Positions 38,355 to 55,729 of a stretch of DNA of 64,000 nucleotides are shown one piece after another. Made by a program: the position numbers and the translations under genes. The notes beneath the pieces were generated by a model. It did not search any database. It was not told the origin of the DNA and saw only the letters and a program-made list of their open reading frames with translations. The stretch lies in contig NZ_CP119145.1 of NCBI RefSeq assembly GCF_029167625.1, positions 6,138,001 to 6,202,000 of the forward strand. Direction: 5' to 3'. Numbering within the stretch: position 1 is the first letter of the stretch; each line of letters begins with the position of its first letter. Origin of the DNA: Streptomyces sp. AM 4-1-1. Its GTDB lineage: Bacteria; Actinomycetota; Actinomycetes; Streptomycetales; Streptomycetaceae.

Positions 38355-39824
38355 TCAGCCGATCCCGGTGGTGCTCGCCCGGGGCACGCGCTCGCGCGGT
38401 GCCGGTTCCGCCAGGTGGTCCGCCGGCCCGTCCGGGTCCGTCAGCCGGTTCAGCCGGGCCGGGACATCGAGGCCGACCAGCAGGACGACGATCACCGTGC
38501 CCGCGAACGTCAGCACGGCCAGGGCCCGCCCCAGGTCCATCCCGGACGCGAGGTGCGCGCCGAGGACGGGGGCGACGGCTCCGCCGAGCGCGCCCACGTT
38601 GTACGTGAAGCCGAGCGCCGCACCACGGCTCTCGGTCGGGAAGTGGCCGCCGATGTAGCGGGGGAGGAGCCCGGAGATGCCGAAGCTGGTCGCCTGGAGC
38701 AGGAACAGCAGTATGCCGAGGAGCAACAGGTTGTTCCGCACGGCGAACACCGGGAAGACGAAGGCGAGCGACGCGAGCAGCGTCAGCGCGTACGCCTTCT
38801 TCGCTCCGATCCGGTCACCGAGGAAGCCCGCCGCCCAGCAGCCCACCATGGTGCCGAAGCCGGCGAAGTAGAGGACATCGGTGACCTGGTCGGTGGTGTA
38901 GCCCAGATCGGTCTTCAGATAGGTCGGCAACAGGGCCTGGGTCGGCCACGAGTACAGGAACGCGAAGAACAGCGTCACGATCATCGAGACGTACAGCACC
39001 CAGCCGCGCCGTCCGCCGAGCTGCACGGCGAGCGCGAGGAGCGCGAGCCCGGCGACCACCGAGAGCGCCGGGACCATTCCGGCGCCGCCCGGGGTGAAGA
39101 CCAGGAAGAGCGCGACGGTGGCGACGACGACCACGACGGTGTTGATGGTGGCCGACCGGCGGGTCCTGAACAGGGGCCGGAACGGGTTGGGCCTGGCGTC
39201 CCGCTCCGCGACGGACTCGGTCCACTCCTCCGCCTCGGGGAGTGAGCGGCGCATCCACAGCGCGACACCGATCGGGATCAGGCCCAGGTAGAACATCCAC
39301 CGCCAGCCGAGCGAGGGCACCACCCAGCCGTAGACCTGCGCGGCGAGCACCGAGCCGACCGAGAACCCGGAGATCAGGAAGCCGCTGGCGCGGGCGCGGA
39401 GCCGGGCGGGCCAGCTCTCCATGACGTACGTGGCACTGGCGCTGTACTCACCGGCCATACCCATGCCGATGGCGAGCCGGGCGGCGAACAGGCTCTGGTA
39501 GTTCCAGGCGAAACCGCACGCGAAGGTCCCCAGCGAGTACAGGAGGATGCTCAGCACCATGGACAGCTTGCGTCCGTAGCGGTCACCGATGGCGCCGAGC
39601 ACGGCGCCGCCGAGCCAGCGGGTGATGAACGCGCCGGAGATCAGGCCGGCCGCCTGGACCGTGCTCAGACCGAAGTCGTCACTGATCTCGGTGAGGACGA
39701 GAGTGATCAGCACGAAGTCGAAGCCGTCGAGGACATAGCCGATCCAGGCGGCGAAGAACGCCTTCCACTGGGTTCGGCTCACCTCGCGGTACCAGGGAGG
39801 CGCGGGGGGTGGTGTGGTGTGCAC
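38355..39824 (-). CDS. nanT: MFS transporter, NanT-like (sialate:H+ symporter type)
   Basis: A 489-residue 12-helix major-facilitator protein. TQWKAFFAAWIGYVLDGFDFVLITLVLTEI, the motif-A loop GAIGDRYGRKLSMV and GMAGEYSASATYVMESWPARLRARASGF resemble the NanT/metabolite:H+ symporter group. A middle loop plus extra helices (ATVALFLVFTPGG...) fits NanT, which has 14 segments in E. coli. It is the last gene of the nanA-nanK-nanE-nanT series, 60 bp after nanE. Sialic acid as substrate is inferred from context. GTG start with TGGAGA. It converges with the thiolase gene, 21 bp apart. Confidence 0.85.
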   Translation of the reverse strand: MHTTPPPAPPWYREVSRTQWKAFFAAWIGYVLDGFDFVLITLVLTEISDDFGLSTVQAAGLISGAFITRWLGGAVLGAIGDRYGRKLSMVLSILLYSLGTFACGFAWNYQSLFAARLAIGMGMAGEYSASATYVMESWPARLRARASGFLISGFSVGSVLAAQVYGWVVPSLGWRWMFYLGLIPIGVALWMRRSLPEAEEWTESVAERDARPNPFRPLFRTRRSATINTVVVVVATVALFLVFTPGGAGMVPALSVVAGLALLALAVQLGGRRGWVLYVSMIVTLFFAFLYSWPTQALLPTYLKTDLGYTTDQVTDVLYFAGFGTMVGCWAAGFLGDRIGAKKAYALTLLASLAFVFPVFAVRNNLLLLGILLFLLQATSFGISGLLPRYIGGHFPTESRGAALGFTYNVGALGGAVAPVLGAHLASGMDLGRALAVLTFAGTVIVVLLVGLDVPARLNRLTDPDGPADHLAEPAPRERVPRASTTGIG

Positions 39825-39884: not shown

Positions 39885-40637
39885 TCAGGGCCGGACGATC
39901 CCGGCGACGAAGCGCGCGGTCAGCGCGGTGGGGGCGGTGATGGCGGTGCCGACGACGACGCTGTGGGCGCCCCTGGCCAGGGCCGCCGCGGCCTCCTCGG
40001 GGGTGCCGATCCGGCCCTCGGCGACGACCGGCACGTCGATGGCGGCGGAGAGCGCGGCGACCAGGTCGAGGTCGGGGCCGTCCCGCTTCGGGGTGCCCGG
40101 CACATAGCCGGAGAGCGTGGTGGAGACGAAGTCGGCGCCCTGCGCGGCGGCGGTCACTCCTTCGGCGAGTGTGGAGACGTCGGCCATGACCAGCGCACCG
40201 GCCGCGTGGACGGCGGCGACCAGGTCCGCGAAGGCCGATCCGTCGGGGCGCGGTCGGTCGGTGGCGTCGGCCGCGACGATGTGCGCACCGGCCTCGGCGA
40301 CCGCCACGGCGTGCCGGGGGGTGGGCGTGATGTAGACACCGACGTCACCGTCCTTCCACAGCCCGATCAGCGGCAGATCGACGGCGGCGGAGATCGCGGC
40401 GACGACCTCGGGTTCGTTGGCGCGGATCGCCGCGCCGCCCCCGGCCGCGGCGGCCCGCGCGAGCCGTACGAGCGTGTCCGTCTCACGCATCGGGTCCCCG
40501 GGAGGGGCCTGGCAGGACACGATCAGCGTGCCCCGGAGCCGTTCGGCCAGCTCGGCGGCGGTCAGCGGCGCGCGGCGGCCGGCCGCCGCGGTGGTGGTCG
40601 GCCGTCCTGGGGTGGTCGTGGCGTCGGGTTCGTTCAT
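39885..40637 (-). CDS. nanE: N-acetylmannosamine-6-phosphate 2-epimerase
   Basis: A 250-residue TIM-barrel epimerase converting ManNAc-6-P to GlcNAc-6-P. LRGTLIVSCQAPPGDPMRETD, AIRANEPEVVAAI, LIGLWKDGD, HIVAADATDRPRPDG, MADVSTLAEGVTAAAQGADFVSTTLSGY and VVAEGRIGTPEEAAAAL are the NanE signature strands. Its first ~25 residues are a non-conserved Thr/Ala tail. Its start overlaps the nanK stop by four bases (ATGA), so it is cotranscribed and coupled. Confidence 0.95.
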   Translation of the reverse strand: MNEPDATTTPGRPTTTAAAGRRAPLTAAELAERLRGTLIVSCQAPPGDPMRETDTLVRLARAAAAGGGAAIRANEPEVVAAISAAVDLPLIGLWKDGDVGVYITPTPRHAVAVAEAGAHIVAADATDRPRPDGSAFADLVAAVHAAGALVMADVSTLAEGVTAAAQGADFVSTTLSGYVPGTPKRDGPDLDLVAALSAAIDVPVVAEGRIGTPEEAAAALARGAHSVVVGTAITAPTALTARFVAGIVRP

Positions 40638-41644
40638 CGGAGGGCTCCCGGGTGGTGGAGGGGAAGAGTGGTGGTCAGCGCGGCGGCGCCGAGCACGGCC
40701 GCGTCGTGCCCGAACAGTGGCGGTACGGGGACGAGCCCCCGCAGCGGAGGCATCAGCTCGGCGGTGAAGGCGGCGGTCAGGGCGTCCGCGTACAGCGGTC
40801 CGATCCGGGGGACCCCGCCGCCCACGACGACCCGGTCGGGGCCGAGGGCGTTGGCGAGCCCGCCCAGGACCTGGCCGACGGCCGCGGCACCGGTCGTGAT
40901 GGCCCGGACGGCGTGGTCGTCGCCTCGGGCGGCCCGTGCGGCGACGGTCTCCAGCCGGTCCACCGACGTGCCGGCCAGCCGCTCGTAGTGCGCGGTGACG
41001 GCGGGCCCGGAGGCGATGACCTCCAGATGGCCGCTCGCGCCGCAGGTGCAGGGCAGCCCGGCCGCCGCCGGGCTCGGCAGGTGCCCCAGATGCCCGGCGA
41101 CCCCCGAGGCGCCGTGCAGCATCCGGCCGTCCACGGCGACCGCGCCGCCCACCCCGGTCCCGACCGCGGCGAAGATCAGCGACGCCGTGCCGGGGCCGCC
41201 GGGCGGGCGGAGCGCGGCCAGTTCCGGACCGGCCGTGGCGCGTACGTCGTTGTCGCAGGCGACCGGCAGCCCGGTGCGGTCCGCGAGCCCGGTACCCAGC
41301 GCGGTACCGGCCCAGCCGAGGATGGAGTCGGTCGCGCTGGTGACCATGCCGGTACGGGGGTCGACCACCCCGGCCGCCGCGACGCCCACCGCCGTGGCCA
41401 GCCGGGCGGGGTCCACCTCGGCGGCGGTGGCCGCGAGCGCGTCCAGCACGGCCGCCGCGCCGTCCCGGGCGGGGGTGGCCCGGGTGGCACGGGCCAGCAC
41501 GCCACCGTCCGAGTCGAGGAGCGCGGCGGCGATCTTCGTACCCCCGAGGTCCAGCCCGATCACCGGCCCGGCGAACGCCGTGGCCGCCGCGCCGGGGCGG
41601 TCCCCCGCGCCGGGGGATTCCCCCGTGGAGAACGGCCGGTTCAT
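40634..41644 (-). CDS. nanK: ROK-family N-acetylmannosamine kinase
   Basis: A 336-residue sugar kinase. ATP motif is VIGLDLGGTKIAAALLD, with ATDSILGWAGTALG, ACDNDVRATAG and FAAVGTGVGGAVAVDG. The ROK zinc site is AGLPCTCGASGHLEV, although the last Cys of the usual CxCGxxGC is His here. ROK kinases act on glucose, ManNAc and others; the nanE/nanA context makes ManNAc the likely substrate. Its start overlaps the nanA stop by four bases. Confidence 0.92.
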   Translation of the reverse strand: MNRPFSTGESPGAGDRPGAAATAFAGPVIGLDLGGTKIAAALLDSDGGVLARATRATPARDGAAAVLDALAATAAEVDPARLATAVGVAAAGVVDPRTGMVTSATDSILGWAGTALGTGLADRTGLPVACDNDVRATAGPELAALRPPGGPGTASLIFAAVGTGVGGAVAVDGRMLHGASGVAGHLGHLPSPAAAGLPCTCGASGHLEVIASGPAVTAHYERLAGTSVDRLETVAARAARGDDHAVRAITTGAAAVGQVLGGLANALGPDRVVVGGGVPRIGPLYADALTAAFTAELMPPLRGLVPVPPLFGHDAAVLGAAALTTTLPLHHPGALR

Positions 41645-42600
41645 CGGACCGGCGGCAGACCGGCGGCGCGCAGCCGGCGGGCGACCAGGGCGACCGACTC
41701 GGCCGACAGCTGGATCTGCGGGAACGCCGTGTCACCGCGGTCGATGACACCGAGCAGCCGCAGCGCCGCCTTGAACGAACCGAGCGCCGACGAGCTGCGG
41801 CCCATGTCCGCCTCCGGACCCGCGTCGACCATGGCGAACAGCTCCACGAGCCGCTCCTGCTCCTTCGCGGCGAGCGACCAGTCCCCGGCCCGCGCCGCGT
41901 CGTACAGCCGGACGTATCCGGCCGGGTCCACATTCCCGATGCCCGGCACGACCCCGTCCACGCCTGCCAACAGGGCCGCGTCGACGGTGAGTTCGGAACC
42001 GGTCAGGATGCTGAACCGGGGCGCCGGACCCTCCGCGCGGCCGGTGCGCCCGCCCAGCTCGACGATCAGCCTGCGCAGACCGCCCTCGTCGCCGCTGCTG
42101 TCCTTGAGACCGGCGAGGGTGCCCTCCTCGGCCAGTTCGCGCACCAGCTCGGGGGCGAGCTCGCTGTGCACGGCGACCGGGATGTCGTACGCGAAGAGCG
42201 GCAGATCGACGCTCTCACGCAGCCGCCTGAAGTGCCCGGCGACCTCCTTGCCGTGGGTGCGGGTGTAGAACGGCGCGGTCGCGACCAGTGCGTCGGCGCC
42301 CAGTTCGGCGGCGGACCGCGCGTGCTCGGCGACACGGGCGGTCGTCGTGTCGATGACACCGGCGAGCACCGGCACCCGTCCGTCCGCCACGTTGATCACC
42401 GTCTCCAGCGCCGTGGCGCGCTGCTCGTCGGTCAGATAGGCGACCTCGCCGGTCGAACCGAGCGCGAAGAGGCCGTGCACGCCCCCGCCGACGAGGTGCT
42501 CCACGAGCCTCGCCAGGGACGCGGTGTCGACGTCCCCCCGCGAGTCGAGCGGGGTGCAGACCGGCGGTACTACGCCGTGCAGCGGTGCGGTCAGAGGCAT
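41641..42600 (-). CDS. nanA: N-acetylneuraminate lyase-type aldolase (first copy)
   Basis: A 319-residue DHDPS/NAL-superfamily class I aldolase that would split sialic acid to pyruvate and ManNAc. Key parts are VVPPVCTPLDSRGDVD, FALGSTGEVAYLT (GSTGE pyruvate site), LFAYDIPVAV with the catalytic Tyr, and the Schiff-base Lys about 166 in GLKDSSGDEGG. ATG at 42600 where homology begins. It heads the nanAKET operon; an operator dyad lies 71-88 bp upstream. A close paralogue occurs at 51318. Superfamily members also use other keto acids, so substrate rests on context. Confidence 0.9.
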   Translation of the reverse strand: MPLTAPLHGVVPPVCTPLDSRGDVDTASLARLVEHLVGGGVHGLFALGSTGEVAYLTDEQRATALETVINVADGRVPVLAGVIDTTTARVAEHARSAAELGADALVATAPFYTRTHGKEVAGHFRRLRESVDLPLFAYDIPVAVHSELAPELVRELAEEGTLAGLKDSSGDEGGLRRLIVELGGRTGRAEGPAPRFSILTGSELTVDAALLAGVDGVVPGIGNVDPAGYVRLYDAARAGDWSLAAKEQERLVELFAMVDAGPEADMGRSSSALGSFKAALRLLGVIDRGDTAFPQIQLSAESVALVARRLRAAGLPPVR

Positions 42601-42670
42601 GGTGAAGGGCTCCAGCGTGTCGAAACACCGGCCACGGCCGCAATGGCCGCGCAACCGGGACATGGGACGT

Positions 42671-42688
42671 AAGATGTCTGATGTCTTG
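42671..42688. promoter_or_regulatory. GntR-type operator copy 1 (nanA / gntR divergent promoter)
   Basis: AAGATGTCTGATGTCTTG, one of three copies of nAGAYRTCTGAYGTCTkn, a dyad around a central T. For nanA it lies just downstream of a TAAGGT -10 (42693-42698, minus strand); for the rightward gntR gene it overlaps TAAGAT (42670-42675). Confidence 0.85.
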
Positions 42689-42750
42689 TTTCACCTTAAG
42701 CAGATGCTCCGGCGACCGGTCAAGGGGCACCGAGAACTCAGGAGGACGCC

Positions 42751-43497
42751 GTGGCGCGGCCCACCATGGCTCAGGACGTCGAGCGCGGAATCAAGGAACT
42801 CATCCTGGACCGCAGGCTGGCGCCCGGAGACGCGCTGCCGACCGAGGCCGAGCTGATGGAGGTCTTCGGCGTCGGACGGGTCTCGGTGCGTGAAGCGCTC
42901 AAGTCGCTCCAGGCCGTCAACGTGGTCGAGATCCGCCGGGGTTCCGGGACGTTCGTCGGCTCGCTGTCCCTGTCACCGTTCGCCGAAGGGCTCGCCTTCC
43001 GGGCCGCCGTCCGCCACCGGCAGGGCGCGCCGGGACTCGCCGAGCTGACGGAGGTGCGGGAGGCGCTGGAGACGGGCCTCGTCGGGGCCGTCGCGGCCGG
43101 TGTCCCGGCGGCCGATCTCGACGTGCTGCGTGGGCTGGTGGCCACGATGGAGACCGAGGCGCACACCGGCCGGGTCGCCCGCTCGACCGACCGCGCCTTC
43201 CATCTGGCGCTCTACGCCTCGTTCGACAACCACCTGCTCAGCGAGGTGCTGGACGCCTTCTGGGCGGCCATGGACCGGGTGCGGGAAGACCTCGACGACG
43301 GACACCAGGACCCGGCGACCACCTGCGCCCAGCACCGCGAGATCGTCGACGCGGTCGCGGCGGCCGACGGCGAACGCGCGGTACGGGCCATGCGGACGCA
43401 CTTCGACGGAATCCGCGCCCGCCTGAACGCCCCGCCGCGCGGTCCGGACACCCGGGCCCGACGGCCCGGGAACGCGCTTCCGGACGTACGGACCTGA
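42751..43497 (+). CDS. FadR-subfamily GntR transcriptional regulator (probable nan regulator)
   Basis: A 248-residue regulator. The winged helix is RLAPGDALPTEAELMEVFGVGRVSVREALKSLQAVNVVEIRRGSGTFVG. The FCD effector domain has the metal-binding His/Asp pattern around DRAFHLALYASFDNHLL and CAQHREIVDAV. GTG start with CAGGAGGA. It is divergent from nanA with the shared operator between. It or the second FadR-type protein at 44849 should bind the three operators; sialic acid or ManNAc-6-P would be the expected inducer. Confidence 0.92.
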   Translation: MARPTMAQDVERGIKELILDRRLAPGDALPTEAELMEVFGVGRVSVREALKSLQAVNVVEIRRGSGTFVGSLSLSPFAEGLAFRAAVRHRQGAPGLAELTEVREALETGLVGAVAAGVPAADLDVLRGLVATMETEAHTGRVARSTDRAFHLALYASFDNHLLSEVLDAFWAAMDRVREDLDDGHQDPATTCAQHREIVDAVAAADGERAVRAMRTHFDGIRARLNAPPRGPDTRARRPGNALPDVRT

Positions 43498-43504
43498 CGC
43501 CCCC

Positions 43505-43538
43505 GGGGCGGCAGTGGGCCTGGGTCCACCGCCGCCCC
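43505..43538. terminator. Hairpin after the gntR gene
   Basis: GGGGCGGCAGTGG pairs with CCACCGCCGCCCC (one mismatch) eight bases after the stop codon; it may end both convergent transcripts. Confidence 0.6.
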
Positions 43539-43674
43539 GCACCGGCTCCGCCGGAGCGCGGTCCCGGAGGCGTCTCCGGCTCGGCGCCGGGAGGGAGGAA
43601 GGATTCGGCGGACCGGCCGGGGTCACGGCGTGGCCGGGGGCCCCACCGCGCGTCCGGGGCCGGGCGGCGGGCCG

Positions 43675-44655
43675 TCAGCCGAGGAGCGCCCGCACCCAGA
43701 CCAGTTGCTCACGCTGCTGGTACTCCGCACCGCCCTCGTGCCCGTTGAACGCGTACACCCGGACGTCCTTCGGGCCCGCGTAACGGTTGTAGGCGGTGAA
43801 GCAGGTGGAGGGCGGGCAGACCTCGTCCATCATCGCGATCGAGAACAGCGCCGGGGCGGTGGCGCGTTCGGCGAGCAGCGCGGCGTCGAAGTAGGACAGG
43901 GTGGTGAACACGGCCTCGGTGCGGTCGCGGTGGAGCTTCAGATAGTCGGCGATCTCGGTGTACGGCGGTCTGCCGCTGATCTCCGCCGCACGCCGGAAGT
44001 TGCACAGGAACGGCACATCGGGCATCACCCCCGCCAGCCCCGGCACCAGCCCGGACACCGCCAGCGCGATACCGCCGCCCTGGCTGACCCCGGTGACGAC
44101 GACCCGGCCGGGGTCGACCTCCGGGTGGCCACGCACGGCCTCGACGCAGCGCACCGCGTCGACGAACACCCGGCGGTAGTAGTGGGTACGCGGACTCTCG
44201 ATGCCCCGGGTCACGAACCCGGGCACGGTTCCGGCGCCCCCGGCGTCCGTGTCGGCGGTGGCGCCACCTGCCGCGGACCAGCCCTGACCGCGGGTGTCCA
44301 TGACCAGGTGCGCGTAACCGGCGGACGACCACAGCAGCTTCTCGTGGGGCAGCCCACGGCCTCGCCCGTATCCCAGGAACTCCACCACGCAGCCGAGCGG
44401 ACGGGCGTCCCCGGTGGGCAGGTGGAGCCAGCCGCGCACCGGCCGCCCCGCGAACCCGGGGACGGTGACGTCGTACGTCCGGATCAGGGGCAGCCCGGTG
44501 TCGACACGCGTGAACTCCGGCTTGTCCAGGCTCTCCTGACGGGACGTCGGGGAATCGTCCAGGGTCCGCGCCCAGAACTCGTCGAAATCGGCGGGCACCG
44601 GGAGGTCCGGGCGGAAGGCGCGGCAGTCCGCGAGCGGGAGATCGGTCAGAGGCAT
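43675..44655 (-). CDS. Acetylxylan esterase/cephalosporin-C deacetylase-family esterase
   Basis: A 326-residue alpha/beta hydrolase of the AXE1/Cah family. The nucleophile Ser about 191 is in VVVTGVSQGGGIALA; acid Asp is in IAMMDEVCPPSTCFTAYN; His is in NGHEGGAEYQ. HLVMDTRGQGWS and THYYRRVFVDAVRCVEAVR are family hallmarks. No signal peptide, so it acts inside the cell on small acetylated sugars. It carries its own copy of the nan operator, so a role in removing O-acetyl groups from imported sialic acids is attractive, but is inferred. ATG after AGGAGGG. Confidence 0.92.
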   Translation of the reverse strand: MPLTDLPLADCRAFRPDLPVPADFDEFWARTLDDSPTSRQESLDKPEFTRVDTGLPLIRTYDVTVPGFAGRPVRGWLHLPTGDARPLGCVVEFLGYGRGRGLPHEKLLWSSAGYAHLVMDTRGQGWSAAGGATADTDAGGAGTVPGFVTRGIESPRTHYYRRVFVDAVRCVEAVRGHPEVDPGRVVVTGVSQGGGIALAVSGLVPGLAGVMPDVPFLCNFRRAAEISGRPPYTEIADYLKLHRDRTEAVFTTLSYFDAALLAERATAPALFSIAMMDEVCPPSTCFTAYNRYAGPKDVRVYAFNGHEGGAEYQQREQLVWVRALLG

Positions 44656-44697
44656 GGAGGTGCCCTCCTGGGGCGGGTCCGGGAAGCGCCAGGACAG

Positions 44698-44715
44698 AAG
44701 ACGTCTGATGTCTTG
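44698..44715. promoter_or_regulatory. GntR-type operator copy 2 (esterase promoter)
   Basis: AAGACGTCTGATGTCTTG, differing from copy 1 at one base. It lies directly downstream of the predicted esterase transcription start, where a bound repressor would block initiation or elongation. Confidence 0.88.
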
Positions 44716-44726
44716 GCGGCACACGG

Positions 44727-44755
44727 ACCTTAGGCACCGGCGCGGGGGCCGTCAA
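44727..44755 (-). promoter_or_regulatory. Sigma-HrdB-type promoter of the esterase gene
   Basis: On the minus strand TTGACG (44755-44750) and TAAGGT (44732-44727) are separated by exactly 17 bases, a near-consensus vegetative promoter. The start would fall near 44720, with the operator just downstream. Confidence 0.75.
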
Positions 44756-44848
44756 GGGCTCGCCCCGCCCGCCGGGCTCGGTGGCGGGGTCGCCGGACGG
44801 GCGGTGCTCCGCTCCCGGGGCGGTCCTTCCGGGCCGGGGGCCCGGCGG

Positions 44849-45568
44849 TCAGCCCCGGGCGCGGGCCTCGGAGATCCGGCGCCTGACCGGCGCGTAGTGC
44901 TCCCCCAGCGCCTTGATGAATCCGGGGGTGTCCCCGGCCCGCGCCGCGTCCACGATGTTCTGGTGGGCGGCGACCGTCGCCGTCTCGTCGGCGTGCGTGA
45001 AACCGTCCAGATGCGGTGCGACGATCGTGTACACGTCCCAGAACGCCATCGAGAGCTGGCCGATCAGCTGATTGCCGAGCGGCGCCACCAGCAGTGCGTG
45101 AAAGGCCCGGTCGGCCTCCACGAACCCGTGCCCCTCCCGGGCGCCGGTCTCCCGCATGGTCGCCACCAGGGCGTCCATGCGGTCGAGCTGTTCCGGGCTG
45201 AGCAGCGAGACGATCCGGTCGGCCATGCCGCGCTCGAAGAGTTCGCGGACGTCGACGAGGTCCGCCAGCACCTGGAAGTCGTCGTCGGGGGAGAGGAGCC
45301 CCCGGAACGTCAGGCTCTCCACCAGCGCGGACAGACTGAGCCTGCCGACGTACGTGCCGTGTCCGTGCCGCACCTCCACGATGTCCAGCGCGTCCAGGAT
45401 CTTCATCGCCTCCCGGACGCTCGAACGGCTCGCGCCCAGCGCCTCGCACAGGGCGGGTTCGGTGGGCAGCGAGTCCCCGGGGCGGAGCTGTTTTTCGAGG
45501 ATGTAGCGCTTGATCCCCTCGACGACTTCCTGTCTGAGCAACTGCCGGCCGGGCCGCGTACCGGACAT
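44849..45568 (-). CDS. Second FadR-subfamily GntR regulator
   Basis: A 239-residue regulator. Winged helix: EKQLRPGDSLPTEPALCEALGASRSSVREAMKILDALDIVEVRHGHGTYVG. FCD domain: DRAFHALLVAPLGNQLIGQL, AHQNIVDAARAGD. ATG at 45568 is preceded by GGGGAG. It is divergent from the ABC transporter operon whose promoter region holds operator copy 3. It resembles the regulator at 42751 in length and recognition helix region (SVREA), suggesting related DNA targets. Confidence 0.92.
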   Translation of the reverse strand: MSGTRPGRQLLRQEVVEGIKRYILEKQLRPGDSLPTEPALCEALGASRSSVREAMKILDALDIVEVRHGHGTYVGRLSLSALVESLTFRGLLSPDDDFQVLADLVDVRELFERGMADRIVSLLSPEQLDRMDALVATMRETGAREGHGFVEADRAFHALLVAPLGNQLIGQLSMAFWDVYTIVAPHLDGFTHADETATVAAHQNIVDAARAGDTPGFIKALGEHYAPVRRRISEARARG

Positions 45569-45586
45569 ATGTGAACTCCCCACCTC

Positions 45587-45615
45587 TTGACCCCTCTCGA
45601 TTGTCAAGCTACGTT
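45587..45615 (+). promoter_or_regulatory. Sigma-HrdB-type promoter of the ABC transporter operon
   Basis: TTGACC (45587-45592) and TACGTT (45610-45615) are 17 bases apart. The transcription start would be near 45622, about 12 bases before operator copy 3. Confidence 0.72.
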
Positions 45616-45633
45616 CCCACGCTATCAAGGCAT

Positions 45634-45651
45634 CAGACATCTGACGTCTGA
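45634..45651. promoter_or_regulatory. GntR-type operator copy 3 (ABC transporter promoter)
   Basis: CAGACATCTGACGTCTGA, with the same 15-bp core dyad as copies 1 and 2. A further half site (ATCAGAC) overlaps its left edge. It lies in the 5' untranslated region downstream of the TTGACC/TACGTT promoter. Confidence 0.85.
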
Positions 45652-45739
45652 CGCTACGTACTCCACCGGTCCCCGAGACCACGCCGATCCCCCCACGCCC
45701 CGCCCCTTCCGCCCCACCCTCAACGTCCCTGGAGGACCC

Positions 45740-47335
45740 GTGCCCGAGCTGAGATCAGCCGGTGTCGAGCGCCGCACCTTCCTGCGTTACACCAGTGCCA
45801 TCGGCGCGGCCGCCGCCATCACGGCGAGCCTCGCCGCCTGCGGCGGCCCGTCCTCGACCGCCGACGGCTCGGCCGGGAAGGGCGACGGCGCGGGCACCAT
45901 CGAAGCCGGGCTCTCGTACCCCCTGTCGACCGGCTTCGACCCGATGATCACCTCCGGTGCCACCCCGTACGCCGCCAACATGCACATCTTCGAGGGCCTG
46001 GTCGATCTCGATCCGGCGACACTCGTGGCCCGTCCCGCGCTCGCCACCGAGGTGCCGAAGAAGATCAACGCCACCACCTACCGCGCCACGCTCCGCGAGG
46101 GCGCCACCTTCCACGACGGATCACCGGTCACCGCCGACGACGTGGTGTTCAGCTTCGAACGCATCCTGGACCCCAAGAACTCCTCGCTGATGGCCCAGTT
46201 CGTGCCGTTCGTCGACAAGGTCACGGCCGTCGACGCGAGCACCGTCGAGTTCAAGCTCAAGTACGCCTTCGCGCTCTTCCCCTCGCGCATAGCCGTCGCC
46301 CGGATCGTCCCGAAGAAGATCGTCTCGGCCGACCCCAAGGCGTTCGACGCCAAGCCGGTCGGCTCCGGTCCGTACCGGTTCGTCGAGGCGACCCGCGAGG
46401 ACAAGATCGTCTTCGAGGCGTACGGCAAGTACAACGGCCCCCACCCGGCCAAGGCCAAGAAGATGATCTGGCGCCTGATGTCCGACCAGTCGGCCCGCGT
46501 CAGCGCCATGGAGTCCGGCCGCGTCCAGGCCATCGAGGACGTCCCGTACATCGACGTCAAGCGGCTCTCCGGCAGCGCGAAGACGGAGTCCGTGCAGTCC
46601 TTCGGCCTGCTCTTCCTGATGTTCAACACCGCCGACAAGCGCTTCGCCGACAAGCGGGTGCGCCAGGCGCTGCACTACGCCCTGGACACCGAGAAGATCA
46701 TCTCCACCGCGATGGTCGGCAACGCCGCCGCCGCCACCGGCTACGTCCCCGCGACCCACCCGGACTACACCAAGGCCGCGACCGTCTACACCCACGACGT
46801 GGCCAAGGCCGAGCGGTTGCTCGCGGAGGCCGGCGCGAAGAACCTCTCCTTCACCGTCCTCACCACCGACACCGGCTGGGTCAAGGACATCGCACCGCTG
46901 CTGAAGGAGAGCTGGGAGGCGGCCGGGGTCAAGGTCACCCTGAACATCGCCCAGTCCCCGGCCCAGTACGCCAAGGTCGACAAGGGCGACTTCGACGTCC
47001 TCGTCGCCCCCGGGGACCCCTCCGTCTTCGGCAACGACGCCGACCTGCTGCTGCGCTGGTTCTACTACGGATTCTGGCCCGAGAAGCGCTACGGCTGGGC
47101 CGGATCGGCCGCGTACAAGCAGGTCAAGCAGACCCTCGACAAGGCTGCCCAGGCCGCCGACGAGGCCAAGCGCAGGGAGCTGTGGGGCCAGGTCACCGAC
47201 CTCGTCGCCGACGAGGCCGCGCTCTACCCGATCCTCCACCGCAAGCTCCCCACCGCGTGGAACGAGAAGGCCCTCCCCGGCTTCAAGCCGCTGCCCACCA
47301 CGGGCCTGTCCTTCGTGGACGTCGGCCGCGCCTGA
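45740..47335 (+). CDS. ABC transporter substrate-binding lipoprotein (SBP family 5; Sat-like)
   Basis: A 531-residue binding protein. It begins with a twin-arginine-type signal (VERRTFLRYTSAIGAAAA) ending at an LAAC lipobox, so it is probably a Tat-exported lipoprotein. The SBP_bac_5 motifs are ATYRATLREGATFHDGSPVTADDVVFSFERILDP and VRQALHYALDTEKI. The family binds peptides, nickel or, in the SatABCD system of Haemophilus ducreyi, sialic acid. The shared operator and adjoining NanA paralogue argue for sialic acid. GTG start at 45740 after GGAGGA. Confidence 0.9.
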   Translation: MPELRSAGVERRTFLRYTSAIGAAAAITASLAACGGPSSTADGSAGKGDGAGTIEAGLSYPLSTGFDPMITSGATPYAANMHIFEGLVDLDPATLVARPALATEVPKKINATTYRATLREGATFHDGSPVTADDVVFSFERILDPKNSSLMAQFVPFVDKVTAVDASTVEFKLKYAFALFPSRIAVARIVPKKIVSADPKAFDAKPVGSGPYRFVEATREDKIVFEAYGKYNGPHPAKAKKMIWRLMSDQSARVSAMESGRVQAIEDVPYIDVKRLSGSAKTESVQSFGLLFLMFNTADKRFADKRVRQALHYALDTEKIISTAMVGNAAAATGYVPATHPDYTKAATVYTHDVAKAERLLAEAGAKNLSFTVLTTDTGWVKDIAPLLKESWEAAGVKVTLNIAQSPAQYAKVDKGDFDVLVAPGDPSVFGNDADLLLRWFYYGFWPEKRYGWAGSAAYKQVKQTLDKAAQAADEAKRRELWGQVTDLVADEAALYPILHRKLPTAWNEKALPGFKPLPTTGLSFVDVGRA

Positions 47336-47343
47336 CCGATCAC

Positions 47344-47373
47344 GGCCCGGGCCCCGCACCGGGGGCCCGGGCC
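47344..47373. terminator. Intra-operon hairpin after the binding-protein gene
   Basis: GGCCCGGGCCCC and GGGGCCCGGGCC form a 12-bp perfect stem, nine bases after the stop and 28 bases before the permease start. It probably reduces read-through or stabilises upstream mRNA, giving more binding protein than permease. Confidence 0.65.
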
Positions 47374-47401
47374 CGCCCGCCCAATCCCAAGGAACCCGAC
47401 G

Positions 47402-48352
47402 ATGGTTGCTTTTCTCCGGCTCGCGCTGCGCCGCGTCGCGATGATGCCGGTGATGATCCTCGGCATCGCGCTGCTGGTCTTCGTGGTGCTGCAGTTCTCG
47501 CCGGCCGACCCGGCCTTCAACGCGCTCGGGGAGAGCGCCACCCCCGAGGCCCGCGCGGCCTTCGCCGACGCCAACGGCCTCAACGACCCGCTGCCCGTGC
47601 GGTACTTCCACTTCCTCGGCCAACTGCTCCACTTCGACCTCGGCATGACCGTGCCGCCGAGCGTGCCCGTGGTCGACCGGATCACCGCCGCCTTCCCGCT
47701 CACCCTCCAGCTGACGGTCCTCGGACTGATCATCGCGGTCGTCCTCGCCGTCCTGCTCGGCGTCGTCGGAGCCATGTACCGCGACCGCTGGCCCGACCAG
47801 CTCTTCCGGGTGCTCTCCATGGCCGGGGTCGCCATCCCCTCGTTCTGGCTCGGCGTACTCCTCATCCAGCAGTTCGCGCTGAACACACCGCTCTTCCCGA
47901 CCGGCGGCTACACCAACCCGGGCGACTCCTTCGGCGGCTGGCTCAGGACCATGGCCCTGCCCTCGATCTCGCTCGCGGTGCCCGTGGCCGCGTCCCTCGC
48001 CCGGCTCGTCCGCACCTCGATGGTCGCCGAACTCGACCGTGACTACGTCCGTACCGCCCGCGGCAGCGGCCTGCCGTCGTCCATGGTGATCCGCTCGGTG
48101 CTGCGCAACGCGCTCGTCACCCCGCTCACCGTGCTCGGCGTCAAGGTCGGCTATCTGCTCAGCGGCGCCGTCGTCATCGAAGCGATCTTCGACCTGCCCG
48201 GCATGGGCAAACTCATCCTCGAAGGTGTCACCGGCGGCGATGTCGCCCTGGTCCAGGGCACCGTACTGACCATCGCCATCGCCTTCCTGGTGGTCAACGT
48301 CATCGTCGACCTGCTCTACCTGCTGGTCAACCCGCGCATCAGGACGGTGTGA
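47402..48352 (+). CDS. ABC transporter permease (DppB/SatB-like)
   Basis: A 316-residue inner-membrane protein with six helices: an N-terminal LALRRVAMMPVMILGIALLVFVVLQF, the periplasmic DPFA-type loop, then LTLQLTVLGLIIAVVLAVLLGVV. The EAA motif is VRTARGSGLPSSMVIRSVLRNALVTPLTVLG. GAVVIEAIFDLPGMGKLILEGV is typical of DppB. Pairs with the next permease. ATG with AAGGA upstream; one base separates it from the following gene. Confidence 0.93.
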   Translation: MVAFLRLALRRVAMMPVMILGIALLVFVVLQFSPADPAFNALGESATPEARAAFADANGLNDPLPVRYFHFLGQLLHFDLGMTVPPSVPVVDRITAAFPLTLQLTVLGLIIAVVLAVLLGVVGAMYRDRWPDQLFRVLSMAGVAIPSFWLGVLLIQQFALNTPLFPTGGYTNPGDSFGGWLRTMALPSISLAVPVAASLARLVRTSMVAELDRDYVRTARGSGLPSSMVIRSVLRNALVTPLTVLGVKVGYLLSGAVVIEAIFDLPGMGKLILEGVTGGDVALVQGTVLTIAIAFLVVNVIVDLLYLLVNPRIRTV

Positions 48353-48353
48353 C

Positions 48354-49811
48354 ATGTTCGCCACGGGCCGTCTGGCCGCCAAGCTCTCCCGCCCCGGAAT
48401 CGCGTTCCGCGCCCTCCCGGTCACCTCCCGCGTCGCCCTCGGCGTCCTGCTCGTCGTCATCCTCGGAGCCGTGTTCGCGCCCCTGCTCACCCAGGACCCG
48501 CTGACCACCGGCACCCCGGTCCAAGCCCCCGGCGGCGCCCACTGGTTCGGCACCGACCGGGCGGGCCGCGACGTGTTCGCCCGCGTCGTCCACGGCTCCC
48601 GCTACTCCCTGATCATCGGACTCGGCGCCACCGCCCTCGCCCTCGTCGCGGGCGCGCTCCTCGGGGCGCTCGCCGCCACCTCGCGCAAACTCGGCGACGA
48701 ATCCGTGATGCGCACCCTCGACATCGTGATGTCGTTCCCGCCGATCGCGCTGGCCGCCGTCCTCGTCGCGGTCTTCGGCACCAGCATCCCGGTGATCATC
48801 TTCACGATCGCCTTCGTCTACACCCCGTCGCTCGCCCGCGTCGTCCGCGCCAACGTGCTGTCCCAGTACGGGGAGGACTACGTCGCCGCCGAGAAGGTCA
48901 TCGGCGCCCGCCGCGGCTACATCGTGCTCCGGCACGTCGCCGTCAACTGCATGGCCCCGGTCATGGTCTTCGCCACCGTGATGGTCGCCGAGGCCATCAT
49001 CTTCGAGGCGAGCCTGTCCTTCATCGGCGCCGGAGTGCAGGACCCCGACCCCAGCTGGGGCAGCGTCCTCGCGTACGGCCGGCAGATCCTCCTCGCCGGC
49101 GGCTGGTGGGCCACCTTCTTCCCCGGCCTCGCCCTGCTGATCACCGTCCTCGCGCTCAACATCCTCTCCGAAGGACTCACCGACGCCTCCGCCGCGCCGA
49201 AGAGCGCCCGCGTCACGCCCGGACCCACGGCGGCCGGCGCCGACCCGCTCGTGGCCCGCTCGGCCGAATCCGTCGACGCCGCCCTCGACAAGCTCGCCCG
49301 GCGCGTCAACGCCACCGAACCCACCATCGTCCCGGTACCGGAGGACGCCGGCGAACTCCTCGTCGTACGCGACCTCGCGATCCGCTTCCCCGACCGCTAC
49401 GGCACCGTCCCCGTCGTCGACTCCCTCGACTTCACCGTCCACGAGGGCGAAACACTCGGTCTGGTCGGCGAGTCCGGCTGCGGCAAATCCATCACCAGCC
49501 TCGCCGTCATGGGCCTCCTCGCCCGCAACGCCGAGATCAGCGGCGAGATCATCTACCGGGGCCGCGACCTGCTGAAGCTCTCGACCAAGGAACGGCGCGC
49601 CCTGATGGGCCCCGAGATCGCCATGGTCTACCAGGACGCGCTCTCCTCCCTCAACCCGTCCGTCCTCGTCGGCACCCAGCTCCGCAGGCTCACCTCACGC
49701 GGCGGTACGAAGACCCCGCCGAACTCCTCGAACTCGTCGGCCTCTCGCCCGGACGCACCCTGCGCAGCTACCCGCACGAACTCTCCGGCGGCCAGCGCCA
49801 GCGCGTCCTGA
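48354..49811 (+). pseudogene. Fused ABC permease-ATPase, frameshifted (5' part)
   Basis: As read, 485 codons. Residues 1-285 are a DppC-like permease (FGTDRAGRDVFARVVHGSRYSLIIGLG; EAA loop AEKVIGARRGYIVLRHVAVNC). After a linker, about 335-455 are the start of a DppD-like ATPase fused to it (LGLVGESGCGKSITSLAVMGLL, Q-loop IAMVYQDALSSLNPS). The frame then breaks at a CCCC run (49714-49717) after TSRGGTKT and ends in unrelated sequence. Adding one C restores TPAELLELVG and joins the 49712-50317 frame. Permease-ATPase fusions of this type are common in actinobacteria, so the intact gene would run 48354-50317. This is either a true mutation or a sequencing error. Confidence 0.9.
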
Positions 49812-50317
49812 TCGCCATGGCCCTGTCCCGCAGCCCCCGCCTCCTCATCGCCGACGAGCCCACCACCGCGCTCGACGTCACCGTGCAGGCCCAGGTCGTC
49901 GAACTCCTCATCAAGCTGCGCGAGGAACTCGGCTTCGCCATGGTCCTCGTCTCGCACGACCTCGCCCTGGTCGGAGACCTCTCCCACCGCGTCGCCGTGA
50001 TGTACGCCGGCCGTCTCGCCGAGATCGGCGACACCCGCTCCGTACTCACCGCCCCCACCCACCACTACAGCCGCGGCCTGCTCGGCTCCGTCGTCTCGCT
50101 GGAAGCGGGCGCCGACCGGCTGCACCAGATCCACGGCGTGGTCCCGGCGCCCCAGGGCTTCGGCGACGGCTGCCGCTTCGCCTCCCGCTGCGCCGCCGCC
50201 ACCGAACTCTGCCGCACCACCGTCCCCCCGCTCGCCCGGCACGGCGCCACGCACGACCACGACTACGCCTGCCACCACCCGGCGAGGACCGCACAGCTGG
50301 AAGGGAGCGCCCTGTGA
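49712..50317 (+). pseudogene. Fused ABC permease-ATPase (3' part, other frame)
   Basis: The rest of the ATPase domain in the -1 frame: PAELLELVGLSPGRTLRSYP, the signature HELSGGQRQRVLIAMAL, Walker B RLLIADEPTTALD, and switch FAMVLVSHDLALVGDL. The C-terminal oligopeptide-transporter domain has cysteines in DGCRFASRCAAATELCR. The signature and Walker B motifs here, and the Walker A upstream of the break, are all needed for ATP hydrolysis, so the transporter is dead if the shift is real. Its TGA overlaps the next gene start (GTGA), showing that the original operon reading was in this frame. Confidence 0.88.
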
Positions 50318-51321
50318 TCAGGCTCGACGGCGTTCACGTACGCCACAAGGCACGCAGCGGCGGGGTCTTCCGCCGGGACGCGGTGCACGCCCTCACCGAC
50401 GCAACCCTGGAGATCGAGCGCGGCGAGATCGTCGGACTGGTCGGCGAGTCCGGCTGCGGCAAGTCCACGCTGGCCCGGGTCCTCACCGGCCTCCAGAAGC
50501 CCACCGAGGGAGAGGTGCGCTTCCACGGACGCGACCTCTGGGAGATGTCGGCGGCCCAGCGCCGCGACGACTTCGGCTCCGCCGTCGGCGTCGTCTTCCA
50601 GGACCCCTCCACCGCGCTCAACCCACGACTGACGGTACGTCAGATCCTGCGCGACCCGCTCGACGTGCACCGGCGTGGCACCCGCGACGAGCGCGAACGG
50701 CGCGTCGAGGAACTCCTCGACCTGGTCGGCCTGCCCGGCCACACCCTCGCCGCCCTGCCCGGCCAGCTCTCCGGTGGCCAGCGCCAACGCGTCGCCATCG
50801 CCCGCGCCCTGGCCCTCGAACCCGAACTGATCGTCGCCGACGAACCGACCTCCGCACTCGACGTCTCCGTCCGCGCCCAGGTCCTCAACCTCCTCGTCGA
50901 CCTCCGGGAACGCCTCGGCCTCGGCATGGTGTTCATCTCCCACGACATCCAGACCGTGCGCTACCTCGCCGACCGCATCGCCGTCCTCTACCTAGGCCGG
51001 ATCGTCGAGCAGGGCCGCGCCGCCGACGTCGCGGGCGCCCCCAGCCACCCGTACACCGAGGCACTGCTCTCCGCCACGCCCAGCCTGCTGGAGACCACCG
51101 AACGGATCGTGCTCACCGGCCCCGTGCCGTCGGCCACCAACCCTCCGTCCGGCTGCCCGTTCCGCACCCGCTGCTGGAAGGCGGACGACGCCTGCGCCAC
51201 GGTCTTCCCCGCCGAGAGCGCCGGCGCCGACGGACACCGCTGGCACTGCGTCCACCCCCAGACACCCGCCGGCCTCCCCGGGGAGGCGGCCTCCGTACCG
51301 TCCGCAAGGAGCACCGCATGA
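50314..51321 (+). CDS. ABC transporter ATP-binding protein (DppF/SatD-like)
   Basis: A 335-residue ATPase. Walker A is GLVGESGCGKSTLARVL, Q-loop GVVFQDPSTALNPRLTV, signature GQLSGGQRQRVAIARAL, Walker B LIVADEPTSALD, switch MVFISHDIQTVRYL. The C-terminal oligo_HPY domain has SGCPFRTRCWKADDACATV. Second ATPase of the Sat-like transporter. GTG start overlaps the frameshifted gene by four bases, and its stop overlaps the second nanA start by four. Confidence 0.93.
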   Translation: MIRLDGVHVRHKARSGGVFRRDAVHALTDATLEIERGEIVGLVGESGCGKSTLARVLTGLQKPTEGEVRFHGRDLWEMSAAQRRDDFGSAVGVVFQDPSTALNPRLTVRQILRDPLDVHRRGTRDERERRVEELLDLVGLPGHTLAALPGQLSGGQRQRVAIARALALEPELIVADEPTSALDVSVRAQVLNLLVDLRERLGLGMVFISHDIQTVRYLADRIAVLYLGRIVEQGRAADVAGAPSHPYTEALLSATPSLLETTERIVLTGPVPSATNPPSGCPFRTRCWKADDACATVFPAESAGADGHRWHCVHPQTPAGLPGEAASVPSARSTA

Positions 51322-52253
51322 CCGCCCGCACCCCCCGTCACAGCGGAGTGATCCCGCCCGTCGTCACCCCCCTCACCACGGACGGCGAGCTCGACCGCGC
51401 GTCCCTGGAACGGGTCGTCGGCCACCTCATCGACGGCGGTGTCAACGGCCTGTTCGCGCTCGGCAGTTCCGGCGAGACCGCCTATCTGACCCCCGGCCGC
51501 CAGGACGAGGTCATCGAGGTGATCACCGCCACCGCGGCCGGACAGGTCCCCGTCCTCGTCGGCGCGATCGAGACCACCACCGACCGCGCGATCGAACGCG
51601 CCCACGCAGCCGCCGCGCGCGGCGCCGACGCCGTCGTCGTCACCGCCCCCTTCTACACCCGGACGGACGACACCGAGATCGACCGGCACTTCCGCCTGGT
51701 CGCCGCCGCCGTCGACCTGCCGCTCCTCGCGTACGACGTACCGGTCTGCGTCCACAGCAAGCTCGACCCGGACCTGCTGCTGCGGCTCGCCGCGGACGGC
51801 GTCCTGGCGGGTGTCAAGGACTCCAGCGGCGACGACGGGGCGTTCCGCCGCCTCGCCATCGGCGCCCGCGAAATGCCCGGCTTCGCCGTGCTCACCGGAC
51901 ACGAACTCGTCGTCGACGCGATGATGCTCAGCGGCGCCGACGGCTCGGTTCCCGGACTCGGCAACGTCGACCCGCACGGATACGTCCGGCTCCACGAGGC
52001 CGCGGTACGGGGCGACTGGGCGGCGGCGAAGGCCGAACAGGACCGCCTCGTCGCCCTCTTCGACATCGTCCGCGCGGCCCGCCCCGGCACCGCCTCCGCG
52101 ACGGCCGCCGGACTCGGCGCGTTCAAGACGGCGCTCATGCTGCGCGGTGTGATCGCCACCAATGTGATGAGCCCGCCGATGCGCCGGCTCGACGCCGAGG
52201 AGACCGCGGCCGTCGCCGCCTGCCTGGACCGCGCCGGACTGTCCCGGACCTGA
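51318..52253 (+). CDS. nanA: N-acetylneuraminate lyase-type aldolase (second copy)
   Basis: A 311-residue DHDPS/NAL aldolase. GVIPPVVTPLTTDGELD, FALGSSGETAYLT, LLAYDVPVCVHSK and Schiff-base Lys about 167 in GVKDSSGDDGAF. It is similar along its whole length to the 41641-42600 gene, sharing VTAPFYTRT-like and GNVDP.GYVRL segments. It is coupled to the ABC operon by a four-base overlap, so import and cleavage are made together. It may serve a different sialic acid or keto-sugar than the first copy. Confidence 0.88.
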   Translation: MTARTPRHSGVIPPVVTPLTTDGELDRASLERVVGHLIDGGVNGLFALGSSGETAYLTPGRQDEVIEVITATAAGQVPVLVGAIETTTDRAIERAHAAAARGADAVVVTAPFYTRTDDTEIDRHFRLVAAAVDLPLLAYDVPVCVHSKLDPDLLLRLAADGVLAGVKDSSGDDGAFRRLAIGAREMPGFAVLTGHELVVDAMMLSGADGSVPGLGNVDPHGYVRLHEAAVRGDWAAAKAEQDRLVALFDIVRAARPGTASATAAGLGAFKTALMLRGVIATNVMSPPMRRLDAEETAAVAACLDRAGLSRT

Positions 52254-54614: not shown

Positions 54615-55394
54615 TCAGTTCCTGGAGGCGCGGGTACGGCGCATCAGCACCGTGCCGCCGAGCAGCAGAGCGGCGCCGGCCCCGGCCGCCAGGCCCACCT
54701 GTCCGGCTCCGGTGTCCGCCAGGAGCGCAGCGGTCGCCGCGGGCGAGGCCGCGGGGTCGTCCGCGGCGAGCGCCGGCTCGTCAGCGGCGAGCGGCGGCTC
54801 CTCCGGAGTGGCCGGAGGGGTCTCCGGGGTGATGGGCGGCTCGTCCGGAGTGAGGGGGGGCTCGGCCGGAGGTGTGTGATGCGTGGGCGGAGTGGTGTGC
54901 GTGGGGGGCTGGTGGTGTGTCGGCGGCTGGCGGGGCGGGTCGACCGGCGGGCGGCCCACGGGGTCGGACGCGTTGACGCATCCGTTGCCGAAGGTGGGGT
55001 TGAGCACGCCCACGACGTCGACGGAGTTGCCACAGGCGTTGACCGGGACGTCCACCGGCACCTGGACGACGTTGCCGGACAGCACGCCGGGGGAGTTGGT
55101 GGCCACGGCCTCCGCGTCGGCGCCCTGCGCGGAGTGGCTGCCGCCACCGCCGGAGACGTTGGCGCAGCTGTTGCCGAAGGCGGGGTTCAGCAGGCCGACG
55201 ACGTCGACCGTGTTGCCGCAGAGGTTCACCGGAATGTGCACCGGCACCTGGACGGCGTTGCCCGAACCGACGCCCGGTGACCCCACGGCGGCGCCTCCTG
55301 CCGACGCGTCCGCGTATGCGTGACCGCCGGTCGCGGTCAGGATGCCTGACGCCGCCGCCATGATGAGCATGCTTTTGTTCAAAGCCTGTCGCAT
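54615..55394 (-). CDS. Long chaplin with sortase signal
   Basis: A 259-residue cell-wall-anchored hydrophobin-like protein of aerial hyphae. Signal peptide MRQALNKSMLIMAAASGILT..HAYA. Two chaplin domains follow: GSPGVGSGNAVQVPVHIPVN / LCGNTVDVVGLLNPAFGNSC and NSPGVLSGNVVQVPVDVPVN / ACGNSVDVVGVLNPTFGNGC, each with two Cys. A Pro/Thr/His and Pro/Glu spacer (about 150-215) reaches through the wall. The end is LADTG, a hydrophobic helix and RRTRASRN, a class E sortase signal (LAxTG). Homologous to ChpA/B/C. ATG after AAGGAAGGG. Divergent from the first rodlin. Confidence 0.96.
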   Translation of the reverse strand: MRQALNKSMLIMAAASGILTATGGHAYADASAGGAAVGSPGVGSGNAVQVPVHIPVNLCGNTVDVVGLLNPAFGNSCANVSGGGGSHSAQGADAEAVATNSPGVLSGNVVQVPVDVPVNACGNSVDVVGVLNPTFGNGCVNASDPVGRPPVDPPRQPPTHHQPPTHTTPPTHHTPPAEPPLTPDEPPITPETPPATPEEPPLAADEPALAADDPAASPAATAALLADTGAGQVGLAAGAGAALLLGGTVLMRRTRASRN

Positions 55395-55729
55395 GTACTG
55401 CCCTTCCTTAGGACACTTCGTGCGGGCCGACGGCCCGTCGTTCTTTCCCGTTTCCGGGACGGAGCAGCCCCGTGGTGGGGCACGGAGACGTTGACGACAG
55501 CCATAACGACGGCTGATTGCGGAGGAAACTTGAAATCGGGTGGAAATTCCGTAACCACTCGAACGAGGGACGAGCGGACGGTCCTTGGCGAGGCCGCGGT
55601 TGACGCCGTCCGTTCCGGTCGTGGTCCGGGTGTCCGGCATTCGGGTGAATGGCGAGAACCAAACGTGCGGAGGTGAGTTGGGCAGGGCGCGCTCCGGCAC
55701 GGGGCATTCAGGAACGAGAAGGGTTCATC
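55395..55729. other. Divergent promoter region of long chaplin and rodlin
   Basis: 335 bp without a gene. Its right side has the rodlin promoter (55654-55681). I could not find a matching promoter for the chaplin. It is less G+C-rich than flanking genes. Confidence 0.5.
55654..55681 (+). promoter_or_regulatory. Sigma-BldN-like promoter of the first rodlin
   Basis: GAGAAC-N16-AGTTGG, against the sigma-BldN consensus CGTAAC-N16-CGTTGA as I recall it. The AAC and GTTG cores and the 16-base spacing agree, and the same arrangement precedes both other rodlins. Confidence 0.6.

Follow-up and report, generated by a model that had tools for sequence, protein, structure and literature searches.

The sialic acid catabolism (nan) island in a 64,000-nucleotide stretch of DNA from Streptomyces sp. 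AM 4-1-1 (contig NZ_CP119145.1, positions 6,138,001 to 6,202,000; the whole stretch is called the window, and coordinates are window coordinates unless a contig is named) contained three copies of a 15-bp dyad, AGAYRTCNGAYGTCT. Site 1 lay between nanA1 and gntR1, site 2 at the esterase promoter, and site 3 between gntR2 and the operon of an ABC (ATP-binding cassette) importer. Comparison of sequences indicated that the dyads are probably the operators of FCD-type GntR repressors of sialic acid catabolism, with GntR2 acting on sites 2 and 3 and GntR1 on site 1. Sites 2 and 3 were conserved with GntR2 in related genomes, and the orthologues of site 1 formed a related class that followed GntR1.

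Anatomy and uniqueness of the three sites

The three sequences quoted in an earlier sequence-only reading of this DNA were all found at their given window coordinates, and scanning of the window located the dyad with 0 mismatches at 42672-42686, 44699-44713, and 45635-45649. The claim that it occurred nowhere else also held, both for the window and, at 0 mismatches, for the whole genome (7,465,012 bases), where the same three places only were returned. With 1 mismatch, six further places were found in the genome (C1: 749458, 924523, 2177945, 2827178, 3911452, and 6911375), and the pattern read backwards as a control had 0 genome matches. Since the reversed pattern, with TAG/CTA-like words inside, is an easy control in high-GC DNA, shuffles were added: AGAYRTCWGAYGTCT gave 5 strand-matches in the window and 0 in 100 dinucleotide shuffles of it, so that the dyad did not occur at random frequency. 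The 13-bp core GAYRTCWGAYRTC had a fourth perfect genome copy at C2:8074-8086 on the second contig (locus L183), and with up to one mismatch it gave 49 forward matches in the genome versus 3 for the backwards control.

The sites exceeded the 15 bp of the dyad and consisted of GAYRTC hexamers, some of them degenerate, placed at every 7 bp; the consensus hexamer is identical to its reverse complement. Site 1 (42659..42685) comprised four of these hexamers, GACATG-G-GACGTA-A-GATGTC-T-GATGTC. The three hexamers of site 2 (44693..44712), GACAGA-A-GACGTC-T-GATGTC, and the four of site 3 (45629..45655), GGCATC-A-GACATC-T-GACGTC-T-GACGCT, overlapped the perfect dyad at the coordinates given above, as did those of site 1.

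Sites 2 and 3 across GntR2 loci

A scan for GntR2 with one genome per species, which reaches close relatives only, returned 74 loci. Seventy-three were from Streptomyces (one titled [Kitasatospora] papulosa) with 66-92% identity to GntR2; the 74th, a 28% match in another phylum, was excluded from the counts. Upstream of gntR2 (class A), the dyad was present within two mismatches in 72/73 loci and was perfect in 55, with the consensus GCATCAGACRTCWGAYGTCTGATGC and usually four half-sites at 7-bp steps. At the esterase promoters (class B), all 60 examined had a site, which was perfect in 22, had one mismatch in 27, and had two in 11. When the GntR2 promoters were shuffled 20 times, matches within two mismatches appeared in 2/1,460 sequences, and scans with the reversed pattern gave 0/73. 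The 74 loci together (1,417,130 bases) contained 178 dyad matches with up to one mismatch, and the reversed pattern gave no match. On the importer side of class A, conservation fell off sharply at the operator; on the gntR2 side a promoter block was also conserved, strongly among close relatives. Because the loci were picked for their similarity to GntR2, part of this conservation reflects common descent.

A scan of the genus, which overlapped with the 73 loci and is not independent of them, covered 392 genomes with a 23-bp extended motif (up to three mismatches) and with GntR2 (E 1e-75 or better). The extended motif was present in 72/392 genomes, the reversed pattern in none, and GntR2 in 49/392. 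The two went together: the motif was found in 42/49 GntR2 genomes versus 30/343 others (Fisher p 1.3e-29, relatedness ignored). Five of the seven motif-less GntR2 genomes (G052, G105, G160, G183, and G307) had, upstream of gntR2, a 15-bp core with no more than two mismatches. GntR2 without GntR1 was found in 21/392 genomes, 16 of which had the extended motif.

The locus of S. olivaceus NRRL B-3009 (L162) had a class A site between gntR2 and the importer, and a class B site 5' of genes for the esterase, a BNR-type sialidase, nanA, nanK, and nanE. Sialic acid is used by free-living but not insect-associated strains of S. olivaceus, whose nan cluster differs between the lineages (PMC8749437).

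In a sample of 396 genomes from the phylum, GntR2 had 6 matches with an E-value of 1e-42 or better, namely in the window genome, G133, two genus members with other paralogues (G067 and G095, 42-43%), G475, and G429. The last of these, a relative at phylum level only (L261), encoded a GntR2 of 40-41% identity beside the importer, nanA, nanK, and nanE, and had a perfect dyad in the interval that separates the first importer gene from the second. In G475 (L260, 53%) the importer and the sites were kept, one with one mismatch and two with two.

The dyad was thus conserved upstream of orthologous nan genes in related Streptomyces, and the proposal that it is a specific operator through which the local GntR proteins control a nan regulon was strongly supported by the 72/73 loci, the co-occurrence, and the distant relative.

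A second class of proposed operators at site 1

Upstream of nanA1 with gntR1 adjacent (class C), 33/33 loci were within two mismatches of the dyad and none was perfect; nine had one mismatch and 24 had two, and the consensus was GACATRGGACATCTTACGTCTCATGTC. Where gntR1 was not adjacent to nanA1, which in the locus layouts was mostly downstream of the esterase, a site within two mismatches was found in 3/27 loci and not in 24/27. GntR1 without GntR2 occurred in 18/392 genomes, with nanA adjacent in 14 and the importer adjacent in four. GATGTCCTATGTC was present within two mismatches in 12/14 of the former, typically in the form GACATRGGACATGGGATGTCCTATGTC, and in 3/4 of the latter, with three mismatches in the remaining one. 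In 16 of 18 dual-regulator genomes read, the centre of site 1 was GTAAGAT, ATCAGAT, or GTCAGAT; the other two had GTAGGAT (G288) and the GntR1-only form ATGGGAT (G348). In the window species the outer part of site 1 was also changed, giving a perfect dyad. Compared by eye, the recognition-helix regions of the two groups of proteins differed mildly (GASRSSVREA in GntR2, AGRVSVREA or VSRNSVREA in GntR1).

As judged from these alignments, the orthologues of site 1 are a related but separate class that follows GntR1, and the site itself is GntR2-like in the window species. The single operator family of the sequence-only reading did not hold as a matter of descent: sites 2 and 3 are of the GntR2 type, and the orthologues of site 1 form a second, related class. 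One genome illustrated a replacement. In G148 (L090), a second GntR2-like protein (65%) stood beside nanA in place of GntR1, not divergent from nanA, with a perfect dyad upstream of its own gene and a one-mismatch dyad upstream of nanA. A strict assignment of one protein to one class was rejected as too strong, given G367 and G264, two GntR1-only genomes that had a TGA-type core at nanA, and our reading is that GntR1 and GntR2 have two related, overlapping specificities rather than exclusive ones.

It is unlikely, though worth weighing, that GntR2 alone controls all three window sites and that GntR1 is a remnant or acts elsewhere. The perfect GntR2-type core of window site 1, unlike that of its 33 orthologues, fits this explanation, as do the 21 genomes whose clusters have GntR2 and lack GntR1. 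However, GntR1 is an open frame of 248 aa (amino acids) with both domains, a class C site lay between nanA1 and gntR1 in 33/33 loci, and GntR1 occurred without GntR2 in the 18 genomes above, with GATGTCCTATGTC in 12/14 of those with nanA adjacent.

Many genomes of the genus also encoded further GntR1-like regulators of 43-56% identity, two of which were near GACGTCCTACGTC or GACGTAGGACGTC elements (L237 and L240).

Predicted promoters around the sites

Promoters were read by eye from the sequence, and their conservation was judged from alignments of relatives. The predicted nanA1 promoter (42695..42723, minus strand) had the -35 element TTGACC (42723-42718) and the -10 element CTTAAG (42700-42695) with 17 bp between them, placing site 1 at about +4 to +30; these elements were partially conserved in 36 aligned loci. 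In the predicted esterase promoter (44727..44755, minus strand), TTGACG (44755-44750) and TAAGGT (44732-44727) were separated by 17 bp, site 2 fell at about +9 to +28, and TTGAC and TAGGGT-type blocks were partly kept in the aligned relatives. The predicted promoter of the importer operon (45587..45615, plus strand), with TTGACC (45587-45592), 17 bp, and TACGTT (45610-45615), would put site 3 at roughly +8 to +34 and was a conserved block in 40 + 32 loci, the strongest conservation of the three. On the minus strand, TTGATA (45628-45623) and GACAAT (45605-45600), again 17 bp apart, suggested a possible divergent promoter for gntR2 (45600..45628), and site 3 abutted its -35 element.

Because a vegetative-type promoter with a 17-bp spacer could be read just upstream of each site, all three operators would fall inside roughly the first 35 bases transcribed from their target promoters. 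The sequence-only reading had described such promoters at two sites; the spacing and placement agreed, and the number was three. The layout at each of the three sites is compatible with its proposal that a bound protein would act as a repressor from the early transcribed region.

Gene content of the island

The gene assignments of the sequence-only reading (nanAKET with gntR, the esterase, and the ABC transporter with nanA2) were borne out by profile matches, and the cluster is a nan cluster in which NanT and NanE both scored above curated NCBIfam cut-offs. Taken together, the promoters with a site precede genes for transport, lyase, kinase, and epimerase, as expected of a nan regulon in the functional sense. 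The order nanA-nanK-nanE-nanT ran from 42600 to 38355 on the minus strand: nanA1 (41641..42600), a candidate N-acetylneuraminate lyase of the DHDPS family (PF00701, below the nanA equivalog cut-off); nanK (40634..41644), a candidate N-acetylmannosamine (ManNAc) kinase of the ROK family (PF00480; NF003461 126.9 bits, cut-off 283); nanE (39885..40637), a ManNAc-6-phosphate (ManNAc-6-P) 2-epimerase (NF002231 257.6 bits, cut-off 189); and nanT (38355..39824), a sialate:H+ symporter of the major facilitator superfamily (NF003024 659.5 bits, cut-off 604). The AXE1-family esterase gene (43675..44655, minus strand; PF05448 343.8 bits, no NCBIfam match) possibly encodes a sialate O-acetylesterase.

The two FadR-type GntR proteins that had been noted in the island both carried GntR and FCD domains (PF00392 and PF07729 above cut-off), which places them in the FadR/FCD subfamily. 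GntR1 (42751..43497, plus strand, 248 aa) and GntR2 (44849..45568, minus strand, 239 aa) are paralogues with 41% identity. The NanR model NF003011 was the best NCBIfam model for both, with scores of 122.9 and 103.1 bits, respectively, far below its cut-off of 260.

The plus-strand operon (45740-52253) encoded an SBP_bac_5 importer followed by nanA2. It comprised genes for the substrate-binding protein (45740..47335; PF00496 276.3 bits), a permease (47402..48352), a permease-ATPase fusion broken by a change of frame (48354-49811 / 49106-50317), an ATPase (50314..51321), and a second DHDPS-family lyase, nanA2 (51318..52253; PF00701 172.1 bits, below the nanA equivalog cut-off). The fusion was split near 49.7 kb, leaving an open reading frame (ORF) of 485 aa versus a single ORF of 651-684 aa in 66/66 relatives assessed. 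The split is either an assembly error or the mark of a disabled importer; if the importer is disabled, NanT is left as the uptake route. Downstream of nanA2 was a metalloprotease-like gene (52430-54493; Mep72 model 98.3 bits, cut-off 645), and beside the island was a gene for a chaplin-type (ChpA-C domain) protein (54618-55700). Four and a further three window ORFs without a Pfam family, some of them probably wrong-strand frames, were dropped.

The regulators might also bind these sites in answer to a signal other than sialic acid, with the island importing and degrading another acylated sugar acid, and we regard this as improbable. Neither lyase reached the nanA equivalog cut-offs, nor did the kinase reach those for nanK, importers of the SBP_bac_5 type are broad, and L260 keeps the importer and the sites with no nanAKE match in the 16 kb examined. 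Against this stand the scores of NanT and NanE above their curated cut-offs and the presence of a sialidase-type gene in the corresponding S. olivaceus cluster; sialic acid is used by free-living strains of that species (PMC8749437). In addition, SBP_bac_5 is the commonest type among actinobacterial sialic acid ABC transporters (PMC8754123).

The dyad core elsewhere in the genus

A 15-mer of the AGAYRTCNGAYGTCT type was present in 55/150 genus genomes. By eye, in 16/30 genus loci (L006-L035) it lay inside a multicopy element with the inverted arms gcgaggcccccggg...cgggggcctcg, where it mostly read AGATGTCTGACGTCT, and at L102:8015 the site overlapped the beginning of a DDE-transposase frame listed from 8024. 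The same heptad array, in overlapping copies, also occurred at other loci (L099:7858, L101:8146, and L105:8365), next to FadR-type regulators (L099 and L105), a four-carbon-acid kinase with SBD_N/NBD_C domains (L099 and L101), and an amidohydrolase (L105). The multicopy element inflates genus-wide counts of the dyad. Because raw 15-mer matches include this element and loci of other regulators, they were rejected as a count of operators, and the 23-bp extended pattern was used for the genus counts.

Since other FadR-type loci carry the same heptad array, related FCD regulators may share the operator code. The sequence-only reading had taken the dyad to define a sialic acid regulon, which was supported in the window genome and did not extend across the genus: because the core also occurs at other FadR-type regulators and in the multicopy element, the dyad alone does not define such a regulon outside the window genome.

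The occurrence of the 15-mer in this element, at 16/30 loci and once at a transposase start, would suit the idea that a mobile or structural repeat, and not an operator, accounts for the dyads. This is very improbable, as the flanks of the nan sites differ from the element, and the nan sites are positioned at promoters and conserved with the regulator. A chance resemblance, for which only the number of three sites and the shortness of the half-sites speak, is already refuted to all intents by conservation across regulators of 66-92% identity; the empty window shuffles and the uniqueness of the dyad in the genome at 0 mismatches also speak against it.

Comparison with known systems

E. coli NanR is likewise a GntR/FCD repressor of sialic acid genes, with operators in three operons, and its repeat-type operator lies downstream of the RNA-polymerase site (PMC8012715, from which the NanR residues below were taken). 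Mapped by eye on an alignment, its zinc ligands D172, H176, H222, and H244, together with R128, corresponded to D153, H157, H202, H224, and R108 of GntR2. The operators differ: NanR has (GGTATA)3 direct repeats, whereas the sites described here are palindromic GAYRTC arrays at a 7-bp step with a GTC-W-GAC core. The cooperativity of NanR needs an N-terminal extension of 32 residues that is absent in GntR2, whose residue 7 aligned with NanR residue 28, and there is one repressor in the E. coli system versus two paralogues here.

Among actinobacteria, C. glutamicum NanR is a GntR-family repressor within a cluster for sialic acid transport and utilisation (PMC4974736, PMC8861201); its operator may resemble the Streptomyces dyad. 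Bifidobacterium breve NanR is a GntR-type nan repressor that responds to N-acetylneuraminate (PMC4746261), and the gene order of its nan genes is different. The layout of the window fits an actinobacterial survey (PMC8754123), in which SBP_bac_5 is the most common type of sialic acid ABC transporter, a fadR-type (COG2186) gene is present in 226/234 Actinomycetia nan clusters, and seven Streptomyces species have an extra nanA next to the nan cluster. The words operator, GntR, and NanR are absent from the main text of that survey, in which no binding site was found.

The RTC-W-GAY core of classes A and B fits the operator consensus of the FadR subfamily, GTM-N0-1-KAC (PMC4494728), which matches GTC-W-GAC. 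Compared with the subfamily operators, the window sites are extended, with as many as four half-sites that follow each other at 7-bp steps. The same paper left E. coli NanR out as non-conforming (PMC4494728).

Searches of open-access PubMed Central showed no operator for Streptomyces nan genes, and an equivalent motif may be in print; searching that literature for the motif as 13- to 15-mer text gave as its only match a paper on human cancer.

Weighing of the operator model

Several observations weigh against the assignment of the dyads to GntR2 and GntR1 as nan operators. Among the 73 loci, L147 was the sole exception with no dyad within two mismatches upstream of gntR2, and in the genus scan the same was true of the GntR2 relatives in G197 and G348. 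Of the 325 genomes that lacked both regulators, 25 still had the extended motif; those examined had it at other FadR-type or sugar-acid loci (L099, L101, and L105). In G429, the gap between gntR2 and the binding-protein gene had no match within two mismatches, and by eye it contained a weaker related array. Because G475 keeps the importer and the sites with no nanAKE match in the 16 kb, the ancestral cargo of the GntR2 system may differ from nanAKE. The TGA-type cores at nanA in G264 and in G367, which has a GntR1 of 72% identity and no GntR2, imply that the specificities of GntR1 and GntR2 may overlap. The residues with which E. coli NanR contacts N-acetylneuraminate (Neu5Ac), R203, H214, N215, and Q221, were not conserved in GntR2 by eye. 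Finally, a sialidase was not recovered as a fourth target in the window genome: the single BNR_2 (sialidase-type) gene, C1:5450031-5450918 (L186), lay about 0.73 Mb away from the nan island, and its best dyad match in the 3.9 kb examined had 4 mismatches.

The observed sites, their conservation, the co-occurrence with GntR2, and the gene content nevertheless suggest the following model of FCD-type repression. GntR2 would be the core nan regulator, binding sites 2 and 3 through GAYRTC arrays around RTC-W-GAY, and the bound protein would block transcription of the esterase gene, the importer operon, and its own divergent gene. Through site 1, GntR1 would control its own gene and the promoter of nanA-K-E-T; this site is GntR2-like in the window species, so both proteins may read it. 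A compound of the pathway, Neu5Ac, ManNAc-6-P, or a similar one, would release the repressors.

A more detailed version of this model is offered tentatively, as somewhat more likely to fail than to hold. In it, two NanR-like paralogues would have separate but overlapping codes, with GntR2 (RTC-W-GAY) controlling uptake, deacetylation, and itself, and GntR1 (GACATRGGACATGGGATGTCC type) controlling catabolism. Site 1 would be a hybrid readable by both, and the window species would have been caught after a code switch at this site. With half-sites 7 bp apart, dimers may be able to stack in the manner of E. coli NanR, through another interface.

The system is most likely a catabolic regulon of the ordinary GntR/FCD kind; its operator was not found in print, and its pairing of two repressors is unusual. 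Exact sites, and a likely protein for each, can now be given for the nan genes of Streptomyces, a genus in one species of which free-living and insect-associated lineages are set apart by whether they use sialic acid (PMC8749437). The sites could serve as sugar-responsive promoter parts in Streptomyces, and the natural series of genomes with GntR2 only, GntR1 only, both, and one replacement is material on how paralogous repressors divide an operator.

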